64,000 nucleotides of DNA, taken from positions 1 through 64,000 of the forward strand of contig NZ_JADYUD010000007.1 of the NCBI RefSeq assembly GCF_021531595.1, given 5' to 3'. Positions 44,769-56,754 of the stretch are shown here, piece after piece (within the stretch, counting starts at the first letter, position 1; every line of letters begins with the position of its first letter). The stretch is from Fusobacterium perfoetens (GTDB lineage: Bacteria; Fusobacteriota; Fusobacteriia; Fusobacteriales; Fusobacteriaceae). The position numbers were made by a program, and so were the translations under genes. The notes beneath the pieces were generated by a model. That model was not told the origin of the DNA and did no database searches. It saw nothing but the letters and a program-made list of their open reading frames with translations.

Positions 44769-46670
44769 TTAAACTTCAATAAATTCATCTTTTGATTCTC
44801 CACATAATGGACAAATCCATTCTTCAGGAAGTTTTTCAAAAGTTGTTCCAGGTTTAATTTCATTTTCAGGATCTCCAATTTCTTGGTCATATTCATATCC
44901 ACAACCACTGCACACATGAATCTTGTAGCTTGGAGCTGATTTTTTAATGAAAGGTTTTTTCATTTTTTTCATAGGAGGTGCTTCTTTTTTAGGTTCACCA
45001 TTATCAAGTGCTGCTGTTAAAACAGGAAGTACTTCCTCTATTGTTCCAACTATTCCATAATCTGCATTCTTAAATATAGGAGCATTTGCATTGCTGTTTA
45101 TTGCTACTATTGTTGTTGCATCTTTTATTCCTTTTAAGTGCTGTCCTGCACCTGAAATTCCACAAGCTATATATAGGTTTCCATTAAACTTTTGTCCTGA
45201 CATTCCAACATAACGGTTTAAAGGGACATATTTCCATTCTTCTGCTACAGGACGAGATGAACCTACTGCTGCTCCTGCCTGTACTGCAAGATTTTTAATA
45301 AGTTCCATATTTTCCTTTTTACCTACTCCTCTTCCAGCACTTACAACACGGTCAGCTTTTGTAATAGGAGTATCTAAATCTATTCCAACAGTAAAATCAT
45401 ATCCATCAGCTTTAAGAGCATCAACTAAAGTTTTTACTCTTTCTTCTACTGTTCCTTCTTTTAAAATCATTTTCTTTCTAAGACCTGCAATAGGACCTTT
45501 CTTTTTAGAACTTCCTCCTTCTTTTGCAATCTTACCTATAATATGAGCTGCTATAACCACTCTTTGAATTTCGTTTGTTCCTTCATAGATAGTACAGATT
45601 TTAGCATCTCTGTATGCTCTTTCTACTTCCATTCCTTTAAGGTATCCAGTACCACCAAAAATTTGAAGAGCATCATTTACAACTTCAAGACATATATCTG
45701 AAGCATACTGTTTTGCCATTGCTGATTCCATTCCATAAGGTTCATGATGTTCTTTAAGTTCTGCAGCACTATAAACTAAAAATCTTGCTGCTCTTAATTT
45801 TGTTGCCATATCAGCAAGTTTGAAAGATATAATTTGCTGATGTGCTATAGGTTTTCCAAACTGAATTCTTTCTTTTGCATATTCAAGAGCATGTTCATAA
45901 GCTCCCTGAGCAATTCCTAAAGCCTGAGAAGCAATTCCTATTCTTCCTCCATCAAGAGTTGCCATAGCAATTTTAAATCCTTCTCCCTCTTTTCCAAGAA
46001 GATTTTCTTTAGGAACTTTTACATCATTGAATAAAAGCTGTGCTGTTGATGATGAACGGATTCCAAGTTTGTCATAATGATCTCCAAATGTAAATCCTTC
46101 CCATCCTTTTTCAACTATGAAAGCACTTATTCCTTTTGTTCCTATATCTGGTGTTGTTACTGCAAATATAATATATGTATCTGCCTTAGGGGCATTTGTT
46201 ATAAATATTTTTTCTCCATTAAGAATATAGTGATCTCCCTGAAGAACTGCTGTTGTCTCTGTTCCTCCTGCATCACTTCCTGCATTTGGTTCTGTAAGTC
46301 CAAATGCTCCTATTTTTTCTCCTTTAGCTAAAGGTACAAGATATTTTTTCTTTTGTTCTTCTGTTCCAAAAGCCATTATAGGATATGATCCAAGAGATAC
46401 ATGAGCTGATAAAATAACTCCTGTTCCTCCATCTACTCTTGAAAGTTCTTCAACTGCTATTGCATAACTTAAAGCATCAAGTCCTGCTCCTCCATACTCT
46501 TTAGGATATGGAATTCCCATTAAATCCATTTCTCCAAGTTTTTTTATTGCCTCTGAAGGAAATTCATTATTTTGATCAAGCATAAACGCAATCGGTTTTA
46601 CCTCATTTTCTGCAAATTCTCTTACTCTTGCACGAAGAGCCTCATGGGCCTCAGTAGTTTTAAAAAGCAT
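44769..46670 (-). CDS. Acyl-CoA dehydrogenase / EtfA-like / rubredoxin fusion
   Basis: A 633-residue three-part protein. Residues 1-382 are a short-chain (butyryl-CoA-like) acyl-CoA dehydrogenase with [37 protein letters not shown] and the catalytic Glu in [10 protein letters not shown] (Glu363). Residues 437-556 match the C-terminal FAD-binding domain of electron-transfer flavoprotein alpha ([52 protein letters not shown]); the N-terminal EtfA domain and EtfB are absent. Residues about 584-633 are a rubredoxin ([10 protein letters not shown]...CPLCG). Electrons could pass flavin, FAD, iron within one chain to the flavodiiron protein encoded next. Confidence 0.93.
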
Positions 46671-46965: not shown

Positions 46966-48621
46966 TTATTTAAGAAGTGTAAAAATAAATTCTGAACCCT
47001 CATTTTCAGATGAAAATACTTCTATTTTTCCACCACAAATATCCACAGTTTCTTTTACTATTGAAAGTCCTAAACCTGTTCCAGCAACATTGCTTGTTCT
47101 AGCTTTATCAATTCTATAGAATCTTTCAAAGATATTATCTTTTTCCTGTTCTGGAAAACCTATTCCATTATCTTTAACAGATACTCTGTATCTATCATCT
47201 TCTTCCTTTATTGAAACAGTAATATGAGGAACTTTGTTATTATATATTATTCCATTTTCAATAAGATTTTTTAAAACTGTCACTGTTTTTTCAAAATCTA
47301 TATTCATATAGTTATTTTCATCTTTTAAATCAAGATTATATTCTATAACAGCTCCTGATTTTTTTACTTTGCCATTAAGAATTTTTTCAACTTCATCTTT
47401 TACTCTTTCAAAAGGAACTGGAGCAAGGTTTATTATTTTAGAACTTTCTATTTTAGATATATTTAAGAAATCCATTGTTATATTTTCTAGTTTTTCAACA
47501 TTACTTCTTATTATATCAAGAAAGTTTTTCTGAAGTTCCTGAGGTGCATCTTCAAGAGCAATTAAATATCCCTTTATATTTGTAAGAGGTGTTTTTAATT
47601 CATGACTTACATTTGCTATAAAGTTTTTCTGTATTTCTCCAAGCTCTCTGCTTCTTGTAATATCTTTTATTGTAATCAAAAATTCTTTTTTAAATTCAAG
47701 ATATTTAACTGTTACAAGAAGATATTTTTTAAGTTTTGAAATAAATATTTCTTCTTTTATATTTTCTTTTGTTTTCATTCCTTTATTTATAACATTAAGT
47801 ATCTCAATGTATTTAACTTTTTTATAAATAGAATCCAATTTTCCATTTACATAAAGATAACCAAGAGCATTGTTCTTCATAATTATTTTAGATTCTTCAT
47901 CTGCAAGAATTATTGAAAGATCTACAGCTGATATAACTCTTTTAAGTCTTGTTTTTTCTTCATTAAGTTTTCTTATATTTTTAAGATTTTCTTTCTGCCA
48001 ATCTCTTACAACTTTCCAGAATTTTACAAGCCAGACATCTCCTTTAGCATAGATTGTTTTTATTTCATCTCCACTTTCAAGAGCTTCTCTCATACTTTCA
48101 ATTTTTTTAAACAAATCTCTTTTTAAATAATTTTTATAGCATATATAAATTGCAATATTTAAAATTATAAAGAAAAATATCTGTGTTACAAGAAGAGTTC
48201 TTAAATCTTTTATCTCTTCATCATAACTTATTGATGTTCTGATTACAGTTTTTTCTCCTTCGCTATTTTCATTAAGAAGACCATAATAAGCCATATTTTG
48301 TCTTAATGTCTTACTTTTTCTTATAGCAAATCCTTCACCTGTTTCAAAAGCTTCCTTTACTTCCTCTCTGTTTCTGTGATTTGCCATTTCATCTTCTTTT
48401 GTATATCTTTCAGAGTCATAAAGAATATTTCCCTGTGCATCTATAAGAGTAAATCTTTTCTTTACATTACCAAACATATCCTGAAAGTTTGATTTAGTAT
48501 ATCCATTTGTAAGCTCTTTAACCATAAGAGCATCTTCTTTAAGTGTTCTTTTTGCAGCATCACCATATAATTCTGATATTTTGCCCATGTATGTATTTAC
48601 AAAAAGAACTTCCAGGAACAA
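46966..48621 (-). CDS. phoR: Sensor histidine kinase PhoR
   Basis: Phosphate-regulon sensor kinase. At least 551 residues: an extracytoplasmic segment, a second transmembrane stretch (IFFFIILNIAIYICY), a PAS-like region, HisKA with the phospho-acceptor His in IANVSHELKTPLTN, and the ATPase with N box NLIENGIIYN, DNGIGFP and GTGLGLSIVKE. The N-terminus is uncertain: the TTG at 48621 begins in the middle of the first membrane helix. The frame is open further back and reads IRRKEIIALIFILFLEVLF, an ideal signal anchor, but has no ATG, GTG or TTG; an ATT at 48657 would fit. Confidence 0.9.
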   Translation of the reverse strand: MFLEVLFVNTYMGKISELYGDAAKRTLKEDALMVKELTNGYTKSNFQDMFGNVKKRFTLIDAQGNILYDSERYTKEDEMANHRNREEVKEAFETGEGFAIRKSKTLRQNMAYYGLLNENSEGEKTVIRTSISYDEEIKDLRTLLVTQIFFFIILNIAIYICYKNYLKRDLFKKIESMREALESGDEIKTIYAKGDVWLVKFWKVVRDWQKENLKNIRKLNEEKTRLKRVISAVDLSIILADEESKIIMKNNALGYLYVNGKLDSIYKKVKYIEILNVINKGMKTKENIKEEIFISKLKKYLLVTVKYLEFKKEFLITIKDITRSRELGEIQKNFIANVSHELKTPLTNIKGYLIALEDAPQELQKNFLDIIRSNVEKLENITMDFLNISKIESSKIINLAPVPFERVKDEVEKILNGKVKKSGAVIEYNLDLKDENNYMNIDFEKTVTVLKNLIENGIIYNNKVPHITVSIKEEDDRYRVSVKDNGIGFPEQEKDNIFERFYRIDKARTSNVAGTGLGLSIVKETVDICGGKIEVFSSENEGSEFIFTLLK

Positions 48622-48638
48622 AATAAAAATCAGGGCAA

Positions 48639-49316
48639 TTATCTCTTTTCTTCTAATTTGTACCCGACCCCCTTCACTGTTTTAATGTTTTCAGCAATAC
48701 TTTTAACTTTTTCTCTTAATTTTGAAATATAAATATCAACTGATCTGTCTCCAGTGTAATAATTTGACTCCCATACTCTGTCAAGGATTTTCTCTCTTGA
48801 TAAGACTATTCCCTGATTTTTTATAAGCAAAAGAAGAAGATCAAATTCTTTTTTAGAAAGTTCTACCTCTTCCTCTCCATCTTTTACAATACGCCTTTTT
48901 TCATCTACAACAACCTGTTTAAAACTATATCTTCCAGATTTTCCAACATTTTTTCCTTCTAAGAATTTTCTTGCACGAAGAACAAGTTCTCTTGGATCAA
49001 AAGGCTTTTTCATATAGTCATCTGCTCCTAACTGAAGACCTTCAAGAACATCTTCTATTTCTGTTTTTGCTGTAAGCATTATTATTACAGGATCTCCATA
49101 TTCAGCAGACATATCTCTTACTATACTTGTAAAATTTTTTCCATCAAGACTTGGGAGCATAATATCTAATACAATAAGATCAGGTTTAAAGCTTTTCACT
49201 GCTTTTAATCCTTCAAGTCCGTCACCAGCTGTCTGAACTTCATAATTTTCTTTTTTAAAAAAATAACTTACCAGCTGTTGTATTTCCATATCATCTTCTA
49301 CTATTAAAACTCTCAT
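48639..49316 (-). CDS. phoB: Phosphate response regulator PhoB
   Basis: A 225-residue OmpR/PhoB-class response regulator: receiver domain with acidic pocket in VEDDMEIQ, phospho-acceptor Asp in DLIVLDIMLPSLDG, the switch Thr/Lys in MLTAKTE and MKKPFDP, then a winged helix (ELSKKEFDLLLLLIKNQGIVLSREKILDRVW, DRSVDIYISKLREKV). It follows phoU and precedes phoR in the pst-pho operon. Its likely binding site is the 11-bp-period repeat before pstC. Confidence 0.92.
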   Translation of the reverse strand: MRVLIVEDDMEIQQLVSYFFKKENYEVQTAGDGLEGLKAVKSFKPDLIVLDIMLPSLDGKNFTSIVRDMSAEYGDPVIIMLTAKTEIEDVLEGLQLGADDYMKKPFDPRELVLRARKFLEGKNVGKSGRYSFKQVVVDEKRRIVKDGEEEVELSKKEFDLLLLLIKNQGIVLSREKILDRVWESNYYTGDRSVDIYISKLREKVKSIAENIKTVKGVGYKLEEKR

Positions 49317-49334
49317 TGTATCCTCCCAGTTTTT

Positions 49335-50048
49335 CTATTCTTCTGCCTCTTCCTTTTCCTCACTTTTATGTTTTTCTCTCTCAAGAAGTTCAACTACTCT
49401 CATATTTTCTCCACTGAAATTATAAATTGAACTCATAGCAAGTTGTGTTATTTTATCTGAAACTCTTTCATACTTTTTGTTAATAAGAAGCATAAGAATT
49501 CCTGCATCAATATTTTTTGATTCTTCTTTCATTTGGCTTCCGATAATAGAATCTATCTCTCCTCTTATTTCATTAATTTCTTCATCCATTCCAAGAAGAA
49601 CATAAGCTTTTTTCTCATCTTTTTCTATAAAAGCTTCCATATATTTTTGGAATATATCATCTATTTTTATAAGAAAATTTTCAAGAATTCCAAAATCTCT
49701 TTCCATATTTCCTTCTTTTTTTTCTATTTTTCTCATTAAGACTAGAGTATCAAGAAGAAGATCTCCCATTCTTTCAAGCATTTTACTTGATTCTATAAAT
49801 GTTATAAGAGCTCTTAAATCTCCTGCAGCAGGTTGAAATCTTGCTATTGACATTATTGATGTTTCTTTTATTTTTACATCAAAAGCATTTATCATATCTT
49901 CAACAAGCTTTGCTTCCCCATAAAGAGATCTGTCAAAACTATCTTTTTTTAACATTTCCATATTTATTCTAAAAAGTCTATCTACATTTTTACAAAGTTC
50001 TATATAATGTTCTGTTATTCCATTGATACTTTCGTGAAGATTTCTCAT
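49335..50048 (-). CDS. phoU: Phosphate signalling protein PhoU
   Basis: A 237-residue all-helical protein with two PhoU repeats (about 10-100 and 115-205; each with an E/D-rich metal motif, for example EAKLVEDMINAFDVKI and ILMLLINKKYERVSDKITQLA). PhoU links the Pst transporter to PhoR and dampens phosphate starvation signalling. ATG 50048 follows AGGAG by seven bases; ATGs further upstream lie in or before this site. The C-terminal tail is strongly charged (EREKHKSEEKEEAEE). Confidence 0.9.
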   Translation of the reverse strand: MRNLHESINGITEHYIELCKNVDRLFRINMEMLKKDSFDRSLYGEAKLVEDMINAFDVKIKETSIMSIARFQPAAGDLRALITFIESSKMLERMGDLLLDTLVLMRKIEKKEGNMERDFGILENFLIKIDDIFQKYMEAFIEKDEKKAYVLLGMDEEINEIRGEIDSIIGSQMKEESKNIDAGILMLLINKKYERVSDKITQLAMSSIYNFSGENMRVVELLEREKHKSEEKEEAEE

Positions 50049-50100
50049 TTTATCACTCCTCATTTTTATTCTATCATATTTTTTCAAAACTTTTTATATT

Positions 50101-50862
50101 CTATCCAAATTTACCTGTTATATAATCTTCTGTTTTTTTCTTGTTAGGCTTAGTAAAAATTATATCTGTTTTATCAAACTCTTCTAGTTTTCCTTGATAG
50201 AAAAATCCTGTAAAATCTGAAATTCTTGCAGCTTGCTGCATATTATGTGTAACTATTATTATAGTATAATCTTTCTGAAGTTCTCTTATAAGTTCTTCTA
50301 TTTTTAAAGTTGAAATAGGATCAAGAGCTGATGTAGGTTCGTCCATAAGAAGTATTTCTGGTTTTACTGCTATTGCCCTTGCAATGCAAAGTCTTTGTTG
50401 CTGTCCTCCTGAAAGTCCAAGTGCTGACTGATGAAGTTTATCCTTTACTTCATCCCATAAAGCTACTGCCTTTAAACTATTTATTACTATTTCATCAAGA
50501 ACTTTTTTATCTTTTTCTCCGTGAAGTTTAGGACCATAAACAATATTTTCATATATTGTTTTAGGGAATGGATTTGGCTTTTGGAAAACCATTCCTATTT
50601 TTTTTCTCAATTCAACTATATCATTATCTGGATTAAAAATATTTTTTCCATCAAACTCTATTACACCTTCATATCTTACACCTTCAATAAGGTCATTCAT
50701 CCTGTTTATAGATCTTAAGAATGTTGATTTCCCACATCCTGAAGGACCTATAAGAGCCGTTACTTTATTTTCTTGTATCTCCATGTTTATATCCTTAAGA
50801 GCCTGAAACTTATCATAATAAAAGTTAAAGTTATTGACCTTAAGTCTTATTGTATTTTCCAT
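50101..50862 (-). CDS. pstB: Phosphate ABC transporter ATP-binding protein
   Basis: PstB energises phosphate import. 253 residues: Walker [21 protein letters not shown]-loop [17 protein letters not shown], signature [15 protein letters not shown], Walker [15 protein letters not shown] and switch His in [10 protein letters not shown]. The [11 protein letters not shown] and RMNDL motifs are specific for PstB. Gene order pstC-pstA-pstB-phoU is conserved. Confidence 0.96.
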
Positions 50863-50901
50863 TTATCCTCCTTAAAAAACTTAAATATATATTTACTCAA
50901 A

Positions 50902-51744
50902 TTATTTACTGCTGAATTTTTTTCTTAAAACTGCACCAAGCAAGTTAAATCCTACTGTAAGAACAACTATTACAAGAACTGTTCCATTCATTATCTTATC
51001 AGGCATATTAGGAACTTGTGTTGCAATTACATAAAGATGATATGGAAGAGCCATTACCTGATCCCATACAGATTCTGGAAGGAAAGGCAGATAAAATGCT
51101 ACTACTGTAAACATTATAGGTGCTGTTTCTCCAGCAGCTCTTGATATACTTAAAATAATTCCTGTAAGAATTCCTGGAAGAGCTGTTGGAAGAATTATTT
51201 TCCATGTTGTTTCCCATTTTGTTGCCCCTAAAGCTAAAGAAGCTTCCCTTAAATCTTTAGGTATTGCAAGAAGTGCTTCCCTTGTTGCTGTTATTATTAC
51301 AGGAAGACACATTATTCCAAGGGTAAGAGCCCCTGAAAGAATTGATGAACCAAATTGTAAGAAAATTACAAACAATGACATTCCAAAAAGTCCATATATG
51401 ATACTTGGTATTCCTGCCAGATTTACTATTGTAAGATTTATTACTCTTCTTATTATATTATCTTTAGAATATTCAACTAGAAATATTCCTGTAAGAATAC
51501 CAAAAGGAACTGAAACTGCTATTGTTCCTATTGTAAGATAAATACTTCCAATTATTGCAGGAAGTATTCCTCCTGCTCTCATTCCATCAGTAGGGTTTGT
51601 TGCTAAAAATTCCCACGATATTGAAGGAACTCCTTTAAATATTATATAAATCACTATGCAGACAACAGGTAAAACTGAAAGATACCCAACACCTTTAATA
51701 ATTCCCTCTATTACTTTTGCTCCTGTTCCTTTTAATAAACTCAT
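50902..51744 (-). CDS. pstA: Phosphate ABC transporter permease PstA
   Basis: A 280-residue permease with six hydrophobic segments, of the PstA type: GGILPAIIGSIYLTIGTIAVSVPFGILTGIFLVEYSKDN, the substrate/ATPase coupling region EALLAIPKDLREASLALGATKWETTWKIILPTALPGILTGIILSISRAAGETAPI. ATG 51744 is seven bases after AAGGAG; an ATG two codons earlier is too close. It is 11 bases after pstC. Confidence 0.94.
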   Translation of the reverse strand: MSLLKGTGAKVIEGIIKGVGYLSVLPVVCIVIYIIFKGVPSISWEFLATNPTDGMRAGGILPAIIGSIYLTIGTIAVSVPFGILTGIFLVEYSKDNIIRRVINLTIVNLAGIPSIIYGLFGMSLFVIFLQFGSSILSGALTLGIMCLPVIITATREALLAIPKDLREASLALGATKWETTWKIILPTALPGILTGIILSISRAAGETAPIMFTVVAFYLPFLPESVWDQVMALPYHLYVIATQVPNMPDKIMNGTVLVIVVLTVGFNLLGAVLRKKFSSK

Positions 51745-51755
51745 TTTCATGCTCC

Positions 51756-52634
51756 TTATTTTCTCATTATCTTTCTTGATTTATTTATAAAATAATCTGC
51801 TATTGTATTTGTTATAAAACTTATTCCGAAAAGTACAAGTCCAACTGCAAAAAGTACATAATAATGTGTGCTGCCATTTACAACTTCCCCCATTTCTGCA
51901 GCTATTGTTGCTGTAAGAGTTCTTACTGGAGAAAGAATTCCTCCTCCTAAAATAGGAGCATTTCCTGTTACCATTAAAACCGTTATTGTTTCACCTATTA
52001 TTCTTCCAAACCCAAGCATTATCCCTGCAAAAATTCCAGGAAACGCTGCTGGAAGTATTATTTTTACAACTGTTTCCAATTTATTCGCTCCCATTGCAAG
52101 AGAAGCTTCTTTATATGAAGGATCAAGTGCCCTTATAGCATCATCTGATATACTTACCATAGTTGGAATAGCCATAAAAGAAAGAAGTATTCCTCCTGTA
52201 AGAGCTGTAAGCCCTGTATTAAGATTAAATATATTTTTTACTAATGCTGATAATACATAAAGCCCTATATATCCAAGTACAACTGAAGGAAGTGCAGACA
52301 TTGTTTCTATAAGAAGTTTAAAAATATCTCTTGTTTTTTTATTTGCATATTCTGCCATGTATACTGCACTCATAATACTTATAGGAACAGATATTCCAAG
52401 TGCTACTAAAGTTACACGGAAAGAACCTGATAGCAAAGGAAGAAGTCCATATTTTTCTGAAAGAGAAATCCATTCTCTTCCTAAGAAAAACTTTGATAAC
52501 GATACATCTTCAAAAGCTTTCATGCTATTTGTCAATATAAATAAAAATATAAGAAAAACTATTACAACATTAAATCCGCCGATTAAAAATATACAATATT
52601 TCATACATTTATCTACGATTTTTCTTAAATTCAT
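51756..52634 (-). CDS. pstC: Phosphate ABC transporter permease PstC
   Basis: A 292-residue permease with six hydrophobic segments; coupling region DDAIRALDPSYKEASLAMGANKLETVVKIILPAAFPGIFAGIMLGFGRIIGETITVLMVTGNAP is typical of PstC. It is the first gene of the operon: upstream there is no pstS but a Pho box, and then a terminator of an oppositely placed group. The binding protein must be coded elsewhere. Confidence 0.94.
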   Translation of the reverse strand: MNLRKIVDKCMKYCIFLIGGFNVVIVFLIFLFILTNSMKAFEDVSLSKFFLGREWISLSEKYGLLPLLSGSFRVTLVALGISVPISIMSAVYMAEYANKKTRDIFKLLIETMSALPSVVLGYIGLYVLSALVKNIFNLNTGLTALTGGILLSFMAIPTMVSISDDAIRALDPSYKEASLAMGANKLETVVKIILPAAFPGIFAGIMLGFGRIIGETITVLMVTGNAPILGGGILSPVRTLTATIAAEMGEVVNGSTHYYVLFAVGLVLFGISFITNTIADYFINKSRKIMRK

Positions 52635-52673
52635 TTTCTACCCCTTATTTTTTCATTCTTTTTATTTTTTTCA

Positions 52674-52726
52674 ATTTTACTCTCAGTTTGTAAGATAAAT
52701 ATTAATTTAATGTAAAAAATATGTAA
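52674..52726 (-). promoter_or_regulatory. Pho box and promoter of the pst-pho operon
   Basis: Four 7-bp elements at exact 11-bp steps (plus strand: TTTGTAA 52687-52693, AATATTA 52698-52704, AATGTAA 52709-52715, TATGTAA 52720-52726), read on the minus strand as TTACATA-N4 units. A possible -10, TAAAAT, lies at 52674-52679. Tandem 7+4 bp spacing is the established form of PhoB and PhoP binding sites, so this is the probable PhoB target. Confidence 0.75.
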
Positions 52727-52749
52727 AAAAATAATTTCAAAAAATATAA

Positions 52750-52820
52750 AAAAGGAGCTGTTGCATTTTCTAATCTATAAAAATAAAATTTTATTTTTAT
52801 AAATCTGCAACAACCCCTTT
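52750..52820 (-). terminator. Terminator after the Spy-like gene
   Basis: A long hairpin: outer arms GTTGTTGCA / TGCAACAGC with AAAAGG...CCTTTT ends, and a perfect AT-rich inner palindrome (about 52776-52801). It is followed on the minus strand by TTTTTTATATTTT. Confidence 0.75.
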
Positions 52821-52829
52821 TAATTATTT

Positions 52830-53198
52830 TTATCTTATAAGAGCTTCTGAGTTTAGTGGAGATTCCATTCTTCTTGTCTGTCTTTCAAATCTTTCTCTCA
52901 TTAAATCTGTTTTATATTTAGATCTTTCCAAAGCTATGTCATCATTAAGCTTCTGAACTTTATTCCAGTCAGGTTTATCATTTAAAAGTTCTTTTCTTAT
53001 TTCAAGTCTTTTTTCATCAATAGAAATTTCCATCTTTCTAAATTCAAAACTTCTTCTGCAGTTATCAGCTCTTTCTATATTCTTTGAATAATGATGTCTA
53101 TGCCATTCCCTTGGTTCTTCTCTTCTATGATGTATCCCTGCAAAAGCTGTTGTTCCTACTGCAAGTAACATTAAACTTCCTATTAATAATCTTTTCAT
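52830..53198 (-). CDS. Spy/CpxP-like small periplasmic protein
   Basis: A 122-residue exported protein with signal peptide MKRLLIGSLMLLAVGTTAFA. The mature part starts with a His-rich stretch (GIHHRREEPREWHRHH) and continues as charged helices (RKMEISIDEKRLEIRKELL, DWNKVQKLNDDIALERSKYKTDLMRERFERQ), the layout of Spy/CpxP/ZraP chaperone-like proteins with a weak LTxxQ motif. It lies 54 bases after a histidine kinase gene, so it may be the feedback or stress chaperone of that system; the His stretch could bind metal. Confidence 0.7.
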   Translation of the reverse strand: MKRLLIGSLMLLAVGTTAFAGIHHRREEPREWHRHHYSKNIERADNCRRSFEFRKMEISIDEKRLEIRKELLNDKPDWNKVQKLNDDIALERSKYKTDLMRERFERQTRRMESPLNSEALIR

Positions 53199-53252
53199 AT
53201 TAATCACTCCTTTACTCTCTTCCTTTTGTAAAGAAATTATACTGCTAATTTG

Positions 53253-54566
53253 TTACCTGAATATGTCAAAATAAAAAATAAATTTATTATTTTTTATTTT
53301 TATTCCATACTCAAATGAATGAAGAGATAAAATTCTTTTAATAAGAGAAAGTCCTAAACCACTTCCTTCTATTCCTTTCTCAGTTCCATTATTTCCTCTG
53401 AAAAAAGGCTCAAATAATTTATCTGTCTTTTCTATTTCTTTAATATACATTGGATTTTCTATTACAATGTTATTCCCTTCTCTATAAATTTTTATTTTTG
53501 AATTTTCAGGAGAATATTTTAGAGCATTTTGTATAATGTTATTAAAAACTATTTCTATAAGTTTTTTATTTGCTGTCACTTCTTTTTCATCAATATCTAT
53601 TTCCCATTCTATATCTTTTTTAAGTTCCAAAAATTCAAATTGCTCAATGCTTTTTCTTATAACTTCATGCAATTCAAATTTTTCTTCAGAAAGTTTTGTA
53701 TCAGCTGAAGAAAGCTTTGAAATAAGCAGAAGATCTTTTACAAGAGTATTCATATATCTGCTTTCTTTTAAAATTACCCTGTAATAATTTTTTCTTTCTT
53801 GCTCCTCTGTAATTTTTCCAGTAAGAAGAAGCTGAGCATGTGTATCAATTACAGCAATTGGAGTTTTTAACTCATGAGAAGCATTGGAAACAAAATTATT
53901 AAGCCCCTCTATAGAGGACGATATACTGTCAGCCATTATATTTATACTTCTACTTAAATCTTTAAGCTCATCACTTGTATTAATGTTAGATTTCTCAGAA
54001 AAATCTAACTCTGCTATTTTTTTGGCTGCTCTGTTAAGAGCCCCTATATTATCAGTTATTCTCTTAGCAAAAATTCTGCTTATAAAAGCACTTATTCCAA
54101 GTGCAACAACAAGAGTTATTAAATTAAGAAGATATACTTCATGTCTATGACTGCTCATTACAGAAAGGGATGTTGTAATAAAAACTATTTCATTTTTTGA
54201 AATATTTTCTTTATAGACTAAAAGAATTATATTATTTTGCATTGAAATTATATGAAATCCATTTTCTACTTTTCTGTATCTGCTTCTGCTTTTTTTATGA
54301 TGAGACTCTGGTTTCATTGAATTCTCAATATATATATTTATTCCCTCTTTATCTTTTACATTTTCTATATATTCTTCAAGGGCATATTCATTATCTGAAA
54401 AATTTTTTATATTATCTTTTATTTTTATAATCTCACTTTTTCTTCTGTTTATATAAAAAGAATCTGCTGCAAATATGCTTAGAATATAACTTACAGATAT
54501 TGTAAAAATAATAAGAAATATAGAGAATAAAAAGATTTTTCTGAAAAGATTAATTTTTATTTTCAT
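53253..54566 (-). CDS. Sensor histidine kinase
   Basis: A 437-residue membrane kinase: TM1 (IFLFSIFLIIFTISVSYILSIFA, about 11-33), a periplasmic domain of about 110 residues, TM2 (LLNLITLVVALGISAFISRIFA), HAMP, HisKA with His in FVSNASHELKTPIAV, and an ATPase domain ending FEPFFRGNNGTEKGIEGSGLGLSLIKRI. Its ATG overlaps the response-regulator gene by 17 bases. The signal is unknown; a Spy-like gene follows, as in CpxRA-type envelope-stress systems. Confidence 0.9.
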   Translation of the reverse strand: MKIKINLFRKIFLFSIFLIIFTISVSYILSIFAADSFYINRRKSEIIKIKDNIKNFSDNEYALEEYIENVKDKEGINIYIENSMKPESHHKKSRSRYRKVENGFHIISMQNNIILLVYKENISKNEIVFITTSLSVMSSHRHEVYLLNLITLVVALGISAFISRIFAKRITDNIGALNRAAKKIAELDFSEKSNINTSDELKDLSRSINIMADSISSSIEGLNNFVSNASHELKTPIAVIDTHAQLLLTGKITEEQERKNYYRVILKESRYMNTLVKDLLLISKLSSADTKLSEEKFELHEVIRKSIEQFEFLELKKDIEWEIDIDEKEVTANKKLIEIVFNNIIQNALKYSPENSKIKIYREGNNIVIENPMYIKEIEKTDKLFEPFFRGNNGTEKGIEGSGLGLSLIKRILSLHSFEYGIKIKNNKFIFYFDIFR

Positions 54567-55212
54567 CTAACACATACCCCATTCCTCTTACTGTTTTTAA
54601 AAGAAATTCATAGCTTCCCATCTTTTTACGAACTCTTCTTACAAGAGTATCTACAGCTCTATCATCTCCATCAAAATCAAATCCCCATACTTCATTTAAA
54701 AGTTGTTCCCTTGAAAAAATTATTCCTTTATTCTTAAACATATATTCTAAAAATTGTATCTCTCTTCTTGTAAGCTCAATGCTTTTATTTTCTAAAATAA
54801 GTTCTCCTTTTTTTGAATCAAAAGAAAACTTATCATATTTATATATACTATTGTTATCTATCTTCAAAAGCTTTTTTATTTTAAGAGTAAGAATCTTAAG
54901 ATTAAAAGGTTTTGTTATATAATCATCTGCTCCTATACTTAAACCATTGTATTCATCTGCATCTGAATCTCTTGCAGTCATTATAATAACAGGAATATTT
55001 GAATTTTTTCTTATTTCTTTACATATATCCCAGCCTGTAACTTTAGGAAGATTTATATCTAAGAGAACAAGATCTGCTCCTGCATTATAAAATTTTTCAA
55101 TTCCTTCTTCTCCGTCAAAAGCTTTTATTATTTCAAACTCATCTGAAAGTGAATCATATAATACCTGCATTAAATTTTTTTCATCTTCTATTATTAACAA
55201 TCTTTTTTTCAC
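54550..55212 (-). CDS. OmpR-family response regulator
   Basis: A 220-residue response regulator: receiver with EDEKNLM, phospho-acceptor Asp in ADLVLLDINLPKVTG, MTARDSD and ITKPFNL, then a winged helix (ELTRREIQFLEYMFKNKGIIFSREQLLNEVWGFDFDGDDRAVDTLVRRVRKKMG). The start is GTG at 55212, six bases after AAGAGG. It heads the regulator-kinase-Spy-like operon. Confidence 0.92.
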   Translation of the reverse strand: MKKRLLIIEDEKNLMQVLYDSLSDEFEIIKAFDGEEGIEKFYNAGADLVLLDINLPKVTGWDICKEIRKNSNIPVIIMTARDSDADEYNGLSIGADDYITKPFNLKILTLKIKKLLKIDNNSIYKYDKFSFDSKKGELILENKSIELTRREIQFLEYMFKNKGIIFSREQLLNEVWGFDFDGDDRAVDTLVRRVRKKMGSYEFLLKTVRGMGYVLDENKN

Positions 55213-55767: not shown

Positions 55768-56754
55768 TTAGTTCCATTCCTTATATATATCATTATAGAA
55801 ATCTACTATTTCTTCTTTTGTTGCTGTTGATGTTCCTATTTTTCCAACTACAACTCCTGCTGCTGTATTTGCTATTCTTGCTGCTTCTGTCCAGCTTGCT
55901 CCAGCTGCTTTTGCAAGAGTATAAACAGATATTACAGTATCCCCTGCACCTGTAACATCATAAACTTCTTTGGCAAAAGTTGGAATATTTGCAACTCCAT
56001 TTTCATCGTAAAGACTTACTCCCTCTTCACTTCTTGTTAAAAGAAGATTATCAAGCTGTAATTTTTCTCTTATTGTTGTTCCTACAACATCTATATCTGT
56101 TCCTTTAGGAAGTTTTGCACATTCAAGAGCTTCTTTTTTATTAGGAGTCATTGAAGAAGCTTTTACATAGTTCATAATATTTGAAGGCTTTGGATCTACT
56201 GTTACTATTTTTCCATATTTTCTTGCTATTTTTATAGCTTCTTTAGCCACTCTTTCTGTAAGAACTCCTTTATCATAATCAGAAAGAATTATGGCATCTA
56301 TATTATCTATATTTTTTCTTAAATTACTTAAAATAGTTTCTTCAAGAATTCCATTTATATTTGTAGGATCTTCCCAGTCTATTCTAAGAAGCTGTTGATT
56401 TCCACCAAGTATTCTTCTTTTTACTATTGTAGGTCTGTCTTCACTTCTTATAAGTCCGTCTGTATTTACTCCTAAAAGTTTTAAAGATTTTTTAAGTCTG
56501 TCTCCATCAATATCATCACCAATTACTCCATAACAATAAGTTTTTACACCTAAAGTAGCTAGGTTATTGATTACATTTCCTGCTCCTCCTAAAACAAATC
56601 TTTCTTCTTTTACAGAAACAACAGGCACTGGAGCTTCAGGAGATATTCTTTCTACACTTCCTATTATATAGTCATCAATCATCAAATCTCCGATAACAGC
56701 CACATTTACTTTTCTAAAATTTGAAATTATTTCCAACAGTCTCTCTTTATTCAT
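55768..56754 (-). CDS. rfaE1: D-glycero-beta-D-manno-heptose-7-phosphate kinase
   Basis: RfaE1/HldA phosphorylates heptose-7-phosphate at C1 for ADP-heptose in LPS core synthesis. The 328-residue PfkB-type kinase shows [53 protein letters not shown], and the anion-hole [16 protein letters not shown]. Only the kinase part is present; the adenylyltransferase part that is fused in E. coli HldE must be a separate gene elsewhere. Good ribosome site GGAGG. It supports a Gram-negative outer membrane. Confidence 0.93.

Follow-up and report, generated by a model that had tools for sequence, protein, structure and literature searches.

The PhoP box of Bacillus subtilis is built from TTAACA-like units at an 11-bp period. 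In the accessible part of PMC4415409, Pho boxes are defined as 11-nt direct repeats with 7 well conserved and 4 less conserved positions, B. subtilis is described as sharing the direct-repeat features, and the consensus is stated to vary between species. Cyanobacterial SphR boxes are given as tandem 8-bp repeats with a 3-bp linker, that is, an 11-bp period, with a similar footprinting logic, and the E. coli gap as 10 bp when 8-bp boxes are counted (available excerpt of PMC1906773). Further, the excerpt of PMC9210968 assigns an envelope regulon to WalR (YycF) and, in B. subtilis, the consensus TGTWAH-N5-TGTWAH. A search of the open-access literature, with most subscription papers outside its reach, returned no description of Pho boxes in Fusobacteria among the titles listed.

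We analyzed a stretch of 64,000 nucleotides from Fusobacterium perfoetens (the window), in which a tandem array of four 7-bp units precedes pstC (Table 1). The units occupy 52727-52688 of the minus strand, are separated by attt, taaa and ttat, and repeat with a period of exactly 11 bp, in agreement with the broad Pho-box pattern of 11-nt direct repeats with 7 well conserved and 4 less conserved positions. The different core is no bar to membership in this broad class, since the consensus varies between species (accessible part of PMC4415409). An earlier note on this DNA had placed the units at positions 52720-52726, 52709-52715, 52698-52704 and 52687-52693 of the plus strand, 11 bp apart, and these coordinates were confirmed by the sequence; in that register, the minus-strand units read TTACATA, TTACATT, TAATATT and TTACAAA. 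The array is the same, but the better-conserved register is shifted by one base, and the third unit is degenerate in that it has no C. The TAAAAT hexamer lies at the edge of the interval discussed in that note (52674-52726) and was not named there. On its 3' side, an apparent ribosome-binding sequence was seen by eye, followed by the pstC start codon at 52634. The array and TAAAAT (52679-52674) together constitute a predicted complete promoter upstream of pstC. This is very probably a PhoB-dependent promoter, with the array as the site of PhoB activation.

Table 1. Positions of the repeat units, the predicted -10 element and the genes of the pst-pho cluster in the window
Feature	Position	Strand	Basis or remark
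Pho-box unit 1, TTTACAT	52721..52727	minus	read from sequence
Pho-box unit 2, TTTACAT	52710..52716	minus	read from sequence
Pho-box unit 3, TTAATAT	52699..52705	minus	degenerate, without C, as at most sites of relatives; sequence and site statistics
Pho-box unit 4, CTTACAA	52688..52694	minus	read from sequence
-10 element (predicted), TAAAAT	52679-52674	minus	8 bp past unit 4; position typical of relatives' sites
pstC, phosphate ABC transporter permease, first gene of the putative operon	51756..52634	minus	NCBIfam TIGR02138 over cut-off
pstA	50902..51750	minus	TIGR00974 over cut-off
pstB	50101..50862	minus	TIGR00972 over cut-off
phoU	49335..50087	minus	PF01895 over cut-off; TIGR02135 111 bits, under cut-off 130
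phoB-type response regulator, presumed binder	48639..49316	minus	Response_reg and Trans_reg_C
phoR-type sensor kinase	46966..48621	minus	HisKA and HATPase_c

Upstream of the array, between the Pho box and a small gene (52830-53207), we also observed a long imperfect inverted repeat (52750-52825). By eye it appears to be the terminator of the small gene; it is absent from the output of the terminator scan, which covers short loops only. The small gene encodes an Arg/His-rich, exported-looking protein without a Pfam or NCBIfam match and lies (52830-55212) beside a second two-component system (53253-54566 and 54550-55212). Elsewhere in the window, a single ORF (44769-46670) combines an acyl-CoA-dehydrogenase-like part, an electron-transfer-flavoprotein alpha part and a rubredoxin-like end, with all three NCBIfam matches below their cut-offs.

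The genes 3' of the box follow in the order pstC, pstA, pstB, phoU, phoB, phoR, and probably form one operon. The best NCBIfam model for the phoB-type gene is TIGR02154 (PhoB) with 181 bits, below the cut-off of 296, which is a naming threshold rather than a functional test; by this curated cut-off the protein is not classed as a PhoB equivalog. For the phoR-type kinase, the best models were PnpS (264 bits, cut-off 400) and then phoR_proteo (211 bits, cut-off 334), both under their cut-offs.

The PhoB protein of the window is 34% identical to E. coli PhoB. The fetched loci (window included) yielded 32 fusobacterial PhoB sequences with an alignment length of 215 residues or more, and all 32 carry Tyr, Lys and Lys at E. 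coli positions 198, 201 and 219 instead of His198, Arg201 and Arg219, with positions 193, 196, 203 and 217 unchanged; fewer than 32 of them are independent, because some loci come from one genome fetched twice. From structure work, residues 198, 201 and 219 of E. coli PhoB presumably touch DNA. The changed recognition residues would fit the changed core, a fit that alone is no proof.

The genome was searched with a sequence-only model based on a gapless alignment of 20 sites from 12 relatives, its own sites being excluded, and 150 of the 5426 first-look candidates were scored. We obtained 37 matches at E ≤ 10. Three were below E 0.05, upstream of pstS (C7:101890-101935, 39.4 bits, E 1e-9), of pstC in the window (25.9 bits, E 1.7e-5) and of phnS2 (21.2 bits, E 5e-4), a gene named after the aminoethylphosphonate binding-protein model phnS2, whose cut-off its product exceeds. 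The earlier note had proposed checking for the array before pstS as well, where it is indeed present, and had named equal scores at many AT-rich sites as evidence against a Pho box. No such scores were found: all three matches below E 0.05 precede phosphorus-uptake genes, and the fourth (E 0.07) lies upstream of a gene for a PHP-domain, HisJ-family phosphatase. The hexamer at the canonical -10 place reads TAAAAT at pstC, TATAAT at pstS, TAAAAT at phnS2 and TATACT at the PHP gene. Ranks 7 (E 0.40) and 11 (E 0.53) precede a Na/Pi cotransporter (NptA) and a phytase-like gene, respectively; both sites are weak, and neither has a convincing -10 at the canonical position. Such weak matches become more credible in view of the strong boxes that precede related genes in L205, L215 and L240. 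Among the first 11 of the 37 matches, which were inspected, the sites on C15, C14, C2, C11 and C3 show no full array. The phytase-like gene behind the weak box (C5:81-1469; L064, 81-1469) has an early in-frame stop, reflecting either a decayed gene or a sequencing error, and an intact relative with a strong box is found in L240.

At E ≤ 0.001 and with stricter filters, 134 sites were detected in 50 of 61 Fusobacteriaceae genomes: 65 adjoin pstC of other genomes, 3 are those of F. perfoetens itself and 66 lie elsewhere, including at pstS genes not directly beside that pstC box. Next to pstC, two arrays often stand back to back, one for pstC and the other for a divergent gene, which was pstS wherever it was read; eight loci (L006, L007, L008 and L010-L014) show two such boxes on opposite strands between pstC and a divergent gene that is apparently pstS. 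For the 66 other sites, a script took the longest ORF starting within 400 bp downstream as the target, and targets were labeled directly by Pfam or NCBIfam or, for the remainder, by clustering. Phosphate or phosphonate uptake genes, phosphatases or similar genes follow 56 of these 66 sites: Na/Pi cotransporters (21 sites at 20 genes, one with two sites; 9 of the 20 genes labeled directly), pstS (9, all direct), alkaline phosphatase (9, of which 6 direct), a UgpA-like permease (7, all direct), Ppx/GppA (3, all direct), PHP/HisJ-type proteins (2), pyrophosphatase (2, both direct), and one each of a phytase-like protein, a metallophosphoesterase and PhnG, all three labeled directly. The UgpA-like label is tentative because the seven proteins score 162-168 bits against a UgpA cut-off of 335, UgpA still being the best model. 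Five sites precede genes without an evident phosphorus role (two CehA/McbA-type metallohydrolases, two LacI-type regulators, both labeled directly, and one SBP_bac_6 binding protein, likewise labeled directly), and no ORF was found downstream of the remaining five. Its position and orientation thus place the box as an activating site upstream of pst genes and of further phosphorus genes. The two LacI-type regulator genes (L209 and L218, 100-1300) stand behind strong boxes in two genomes, so that phosphate may be linked to carbon control.

The 61 genomes include several that were used for training, in which pstC and pstS matches are expected; sites at all other genes are outside the training data. 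A box was present in 42 of 49 pstC upstream regions (window included, about a dozen from training genomes). Five of the seven boxless regions belong to genus g14, where an array scoring 17.8-27.0 precedes the adjacent pstS; one of these five passes E 0.001. The other two belong to distant pstC genes of 31-32% identity, and in one case (L230) a box is found upstream of pstS.

The sites also share a promoter geometry. Counting from the first base of unit 1, a TATAAT-like hexamer (at least 5 of 6 bases) begins at position 49 in 69 of 96 thinned sites, the next commonest positions reaching 11, and this fixed -10 place is independent of site finding because the model ends at position 44. Outside the training set the hexamer is at position 49 in 53 of 77 thinned sites; the count is 8 at positions 47 and 52 and averages 2.1 over positions 56-90, with a maximum of 7. 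The fifth base is C in units 1, 2 and 4 of 76, 76 and 74 of these 77 sites and in unit 3 of 10, and the fourth unit is mostly TTAACA among the thinned sites. A near-invariant C in units 1, 2 and 4 but usually not in unit 3, and a -10 mostly 8 bp past unit 4, are features of the lineage.

We further compared the occurrence of the box (E ≤ 0.001) with that of PhoB orthologues (E ≤ 1e-50) in 98 genomes of the phylum. Both were present in 54 genomes and neither in 39, so that box presence tracks PhoB in 93 of 98. A box without a detected orthologue was found in G007 (67% complete) and G085, and PhoB without a box in G039, G046 and G047, the latter two with sub-threshold boxes before pstC (L109, L113). 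For PstC over its cut-off, the counts were 52 for both, 34 for neither, 4 for the box only (G007, G048, G055 and G059, all 62-85% complete) and 8 for PstC only (8 of 60 PstC genomes: G039, G046, G047, G066, G081, G084, G091 and G092). The Fisher test on such counts ignores the kinship of the genomes. The contrast is also seen within one genus, g4: at these thresholds PstC, PhoB and the box are all found in G015 and are all missing from G016 and G017. The window likewise encodes PhoB/PhoR together with the Pst system. The genome search, the regulon content and the co-occurrence with PhoB support the earlier suggestion of a PhoB-type Pho box whose spacing is 7+4 and whose core is not CTGTCAT, to which PhoB would bind.

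The main rival to this reading is that a WalR/YycF-type or other OmpR-family regulator binds the repeats instead of PhoB. The opposite strand of units 1 and 2 reads TGTAAA-N5-TGTAAA (plus 52711-52727), an exact match to the WalR consensus as given in the excerpt of PMC9210968, and the genome holds at least four other response-regulator genes. However, the array has four repeats, not two, its -10 lies mostly at one fixed place in the direction of pstC, and the phoB gene itself lies behind the site. Because most genes behind the sites are phosphorus genes and box presence agrees with PhoB in nearly all genomes compared, we consider this alternative very unlikely.

The box could also be a recent passenger, acquired as the promoter of a transferred pst-pho operon and no longer used. 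The pst-pho genes (46966-52634) look foreign to the genus, and a horizontal replacement is likely: PstC of the window shares 77-78% identity with genus g14 vs. 61-64% within the own genus, and for PhoB the values are 73-74% with genera g8 and g13 vs. 56-64% within the own genus. In contrast, the heptose-phosphate kinase gene at 55768-56754 is 72-76% identical to the own genus and at most 70% to others. In own-genus relatives, pstC is divergent from the pstS-phoB side. That the site went out of use is nevertheless highly improbable, as boxes also stand upstream of pstS and phnS2 elsewhere in this genome, each at its own locus, and the motif is used by relatives of the genus too.

The array also stands out from its AT-rich surroundings. 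With a position-weight matrix trained solely on other genomes, the window site scores 35.4, and the best of 20,000 first-order Markov resamples of the 195-bp intergenic region scored 20.3; unit matches were 24 of 28, with a resample maximum of 22. A pattern drawn from the window site found, with up to 3 mismatches, only itself in the 64-kb window (mean 0 in 100 dinucleotide shuffles), a self-match by construction, so that the absence of other matches is the informative part. In the whole genome it gave 4 matches vs. 1 for the reversed pattern. Among periods of 8-15 bp, 11 bp alone stands out in 15 regions upstream of pstC, one from the window and 14 from relatives whose contig names are public, with a mean best score of 22.3 vs. 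17.1-18.1 for periods 8-10 and 12-15. Two of these regions (L001 and L002) have no array directly upstream of pstC; L002 has one of score 27.0 about 1.07 kb before pstC, where pstS adjoins in that genus. Column-permuted matrices (n = 5) gave 0 matches at score 22 in 157,787 bases of L001-L014 vs. 23 for the real matrix, 20 of which are training sites and 3 of which lie about 1.1-1.3 kb before pstC. Chance repeats over an ordinary sigma-70 promoter in AT-rich DNA (e.g., TTTACA-17-TAATAT from units 1 and 3) are barely conceivable and were rejected by the resampling, the pattern shuffles and a promoter-pair scan: the scan found 4 promoter-like pairs in 52600-52900, 2 of them on units 1 and 3, but shuffles give 2.0 (sd 1.5), no pair uses the 52679-52674 hexamer, none of the 20,000 resamples reaches the array score, and the array with its -10 at +49 recurs across genera.

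Some strong boxes were found without an ORF behind them. These are L225 (150-245) and, on the minus strand, L224 (about 2380-2490) with a near-identical copy in L218, each with a perfect TATAAT at the canonical place. A transcript from L225 would be about 75 nt long, with a C-rich stretch and a terminal hairpin before a run of T's. A search within the genus for a conserved small RNA downstream of this box found none: apart from the self-match, everything better than E 1e-4 is confined to the box, and many weaker, low-complexity-like matches lie elsewhere. Rfam returned nothing at gathering scores for L206, L218, L224, L225 and L247, and the hairpin in L247 suits a converging gene. L225 and L224/L218 are candidate phosphate-regulated non-coding RNAs, which remain a lead because there was no conservation beyond the L225 box and no Rfam match.

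For the PhoB-activated promoter, we propose the following model. Under phosphate shortage, PhoR would phosphorylate PhoB, and two PhoB dimers would bind head-to-tail to the four 11-bp repeats on one face of the helix. Bound PhoB would recruit RNA polymerase to the -10 at 52679-52674, which lacks a good -35, and the promoter would drive pstC-pstA-pstB-phoU-phoB-phoR, with positive feedback through the inclusion of phoB. The same array would control pstS, about 49 kb away, and the gene for phosphonate-type uptake, and probably a small number of other phosphorus genes as well. This provides a usable motif and a predicted phosphate-starvation regulon for a phylum in which we found none described in the open-access literature, comprising Pst, Na/Pi cotransporter, alkaline phosphatase, UgpA-like and phosphonate-type uptake, PhnG, exopolyphosphatase and pyrophosphatase. 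It also offers a natural experiment on the relation between the recognition residues of PhoB, the sequence of the half-sites and the -10 distance. Tentatively, Fusobacteriota may have a Pho regulon with its own DNA code and geometry, in which Tyr198/Lys201/Lys219 of PhoB (E. coli numbering) would read TTTACAT, the third half-site would be deliberately C-less, the polymerase would sit 2 bp closer than in E. coli so that the PhoB-sigma contact must differ, and some species would add PhoB-driven short non-coding RNAs (L225, L224).

Among the known systems, the E. coli Pho box (pstS and phoA promoters) shares the tandem direct repeats of 7 + 4 bp, the fixed distance to the -10 and the pst targets. 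E. coli pstS has four units too, the third of which, CTTACAT, is one base from TTTACAT. The array departs from the narrow E. coli type in its core (TTTACAT vs. CTGTCAT) and in the gap from the last 7-mer to the -10 (8 bp vs. 10 bp, by our own reading of E. coli K-12 pstS and phoA). The usual lack of C in unit 3 and the PhoB recognition residues differ from E. coli as well. The mostly TTAACA fourth unit resembles the TTAACA-like units of the B. subtilis PhoP box. Cyanobacterial SphR boxes share the 11-bp period and differ in their core, CTTAACCT. The WalR (YycF) motif TGTWAH-N5-TGTWAH fits the reverse complement of two adjacent units, but it has two repeats instead of four, and most targets here are phosphorus genes rather than envelope genes. 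Overall, the results support a PhoB-activated promoter of known architecture with a probably lineage-specific core, an asymmetric third half-site and a shorter -10 distance. Sites of this kind are well established, but in this group both sequence and spacing appear to be specific to the lineage.
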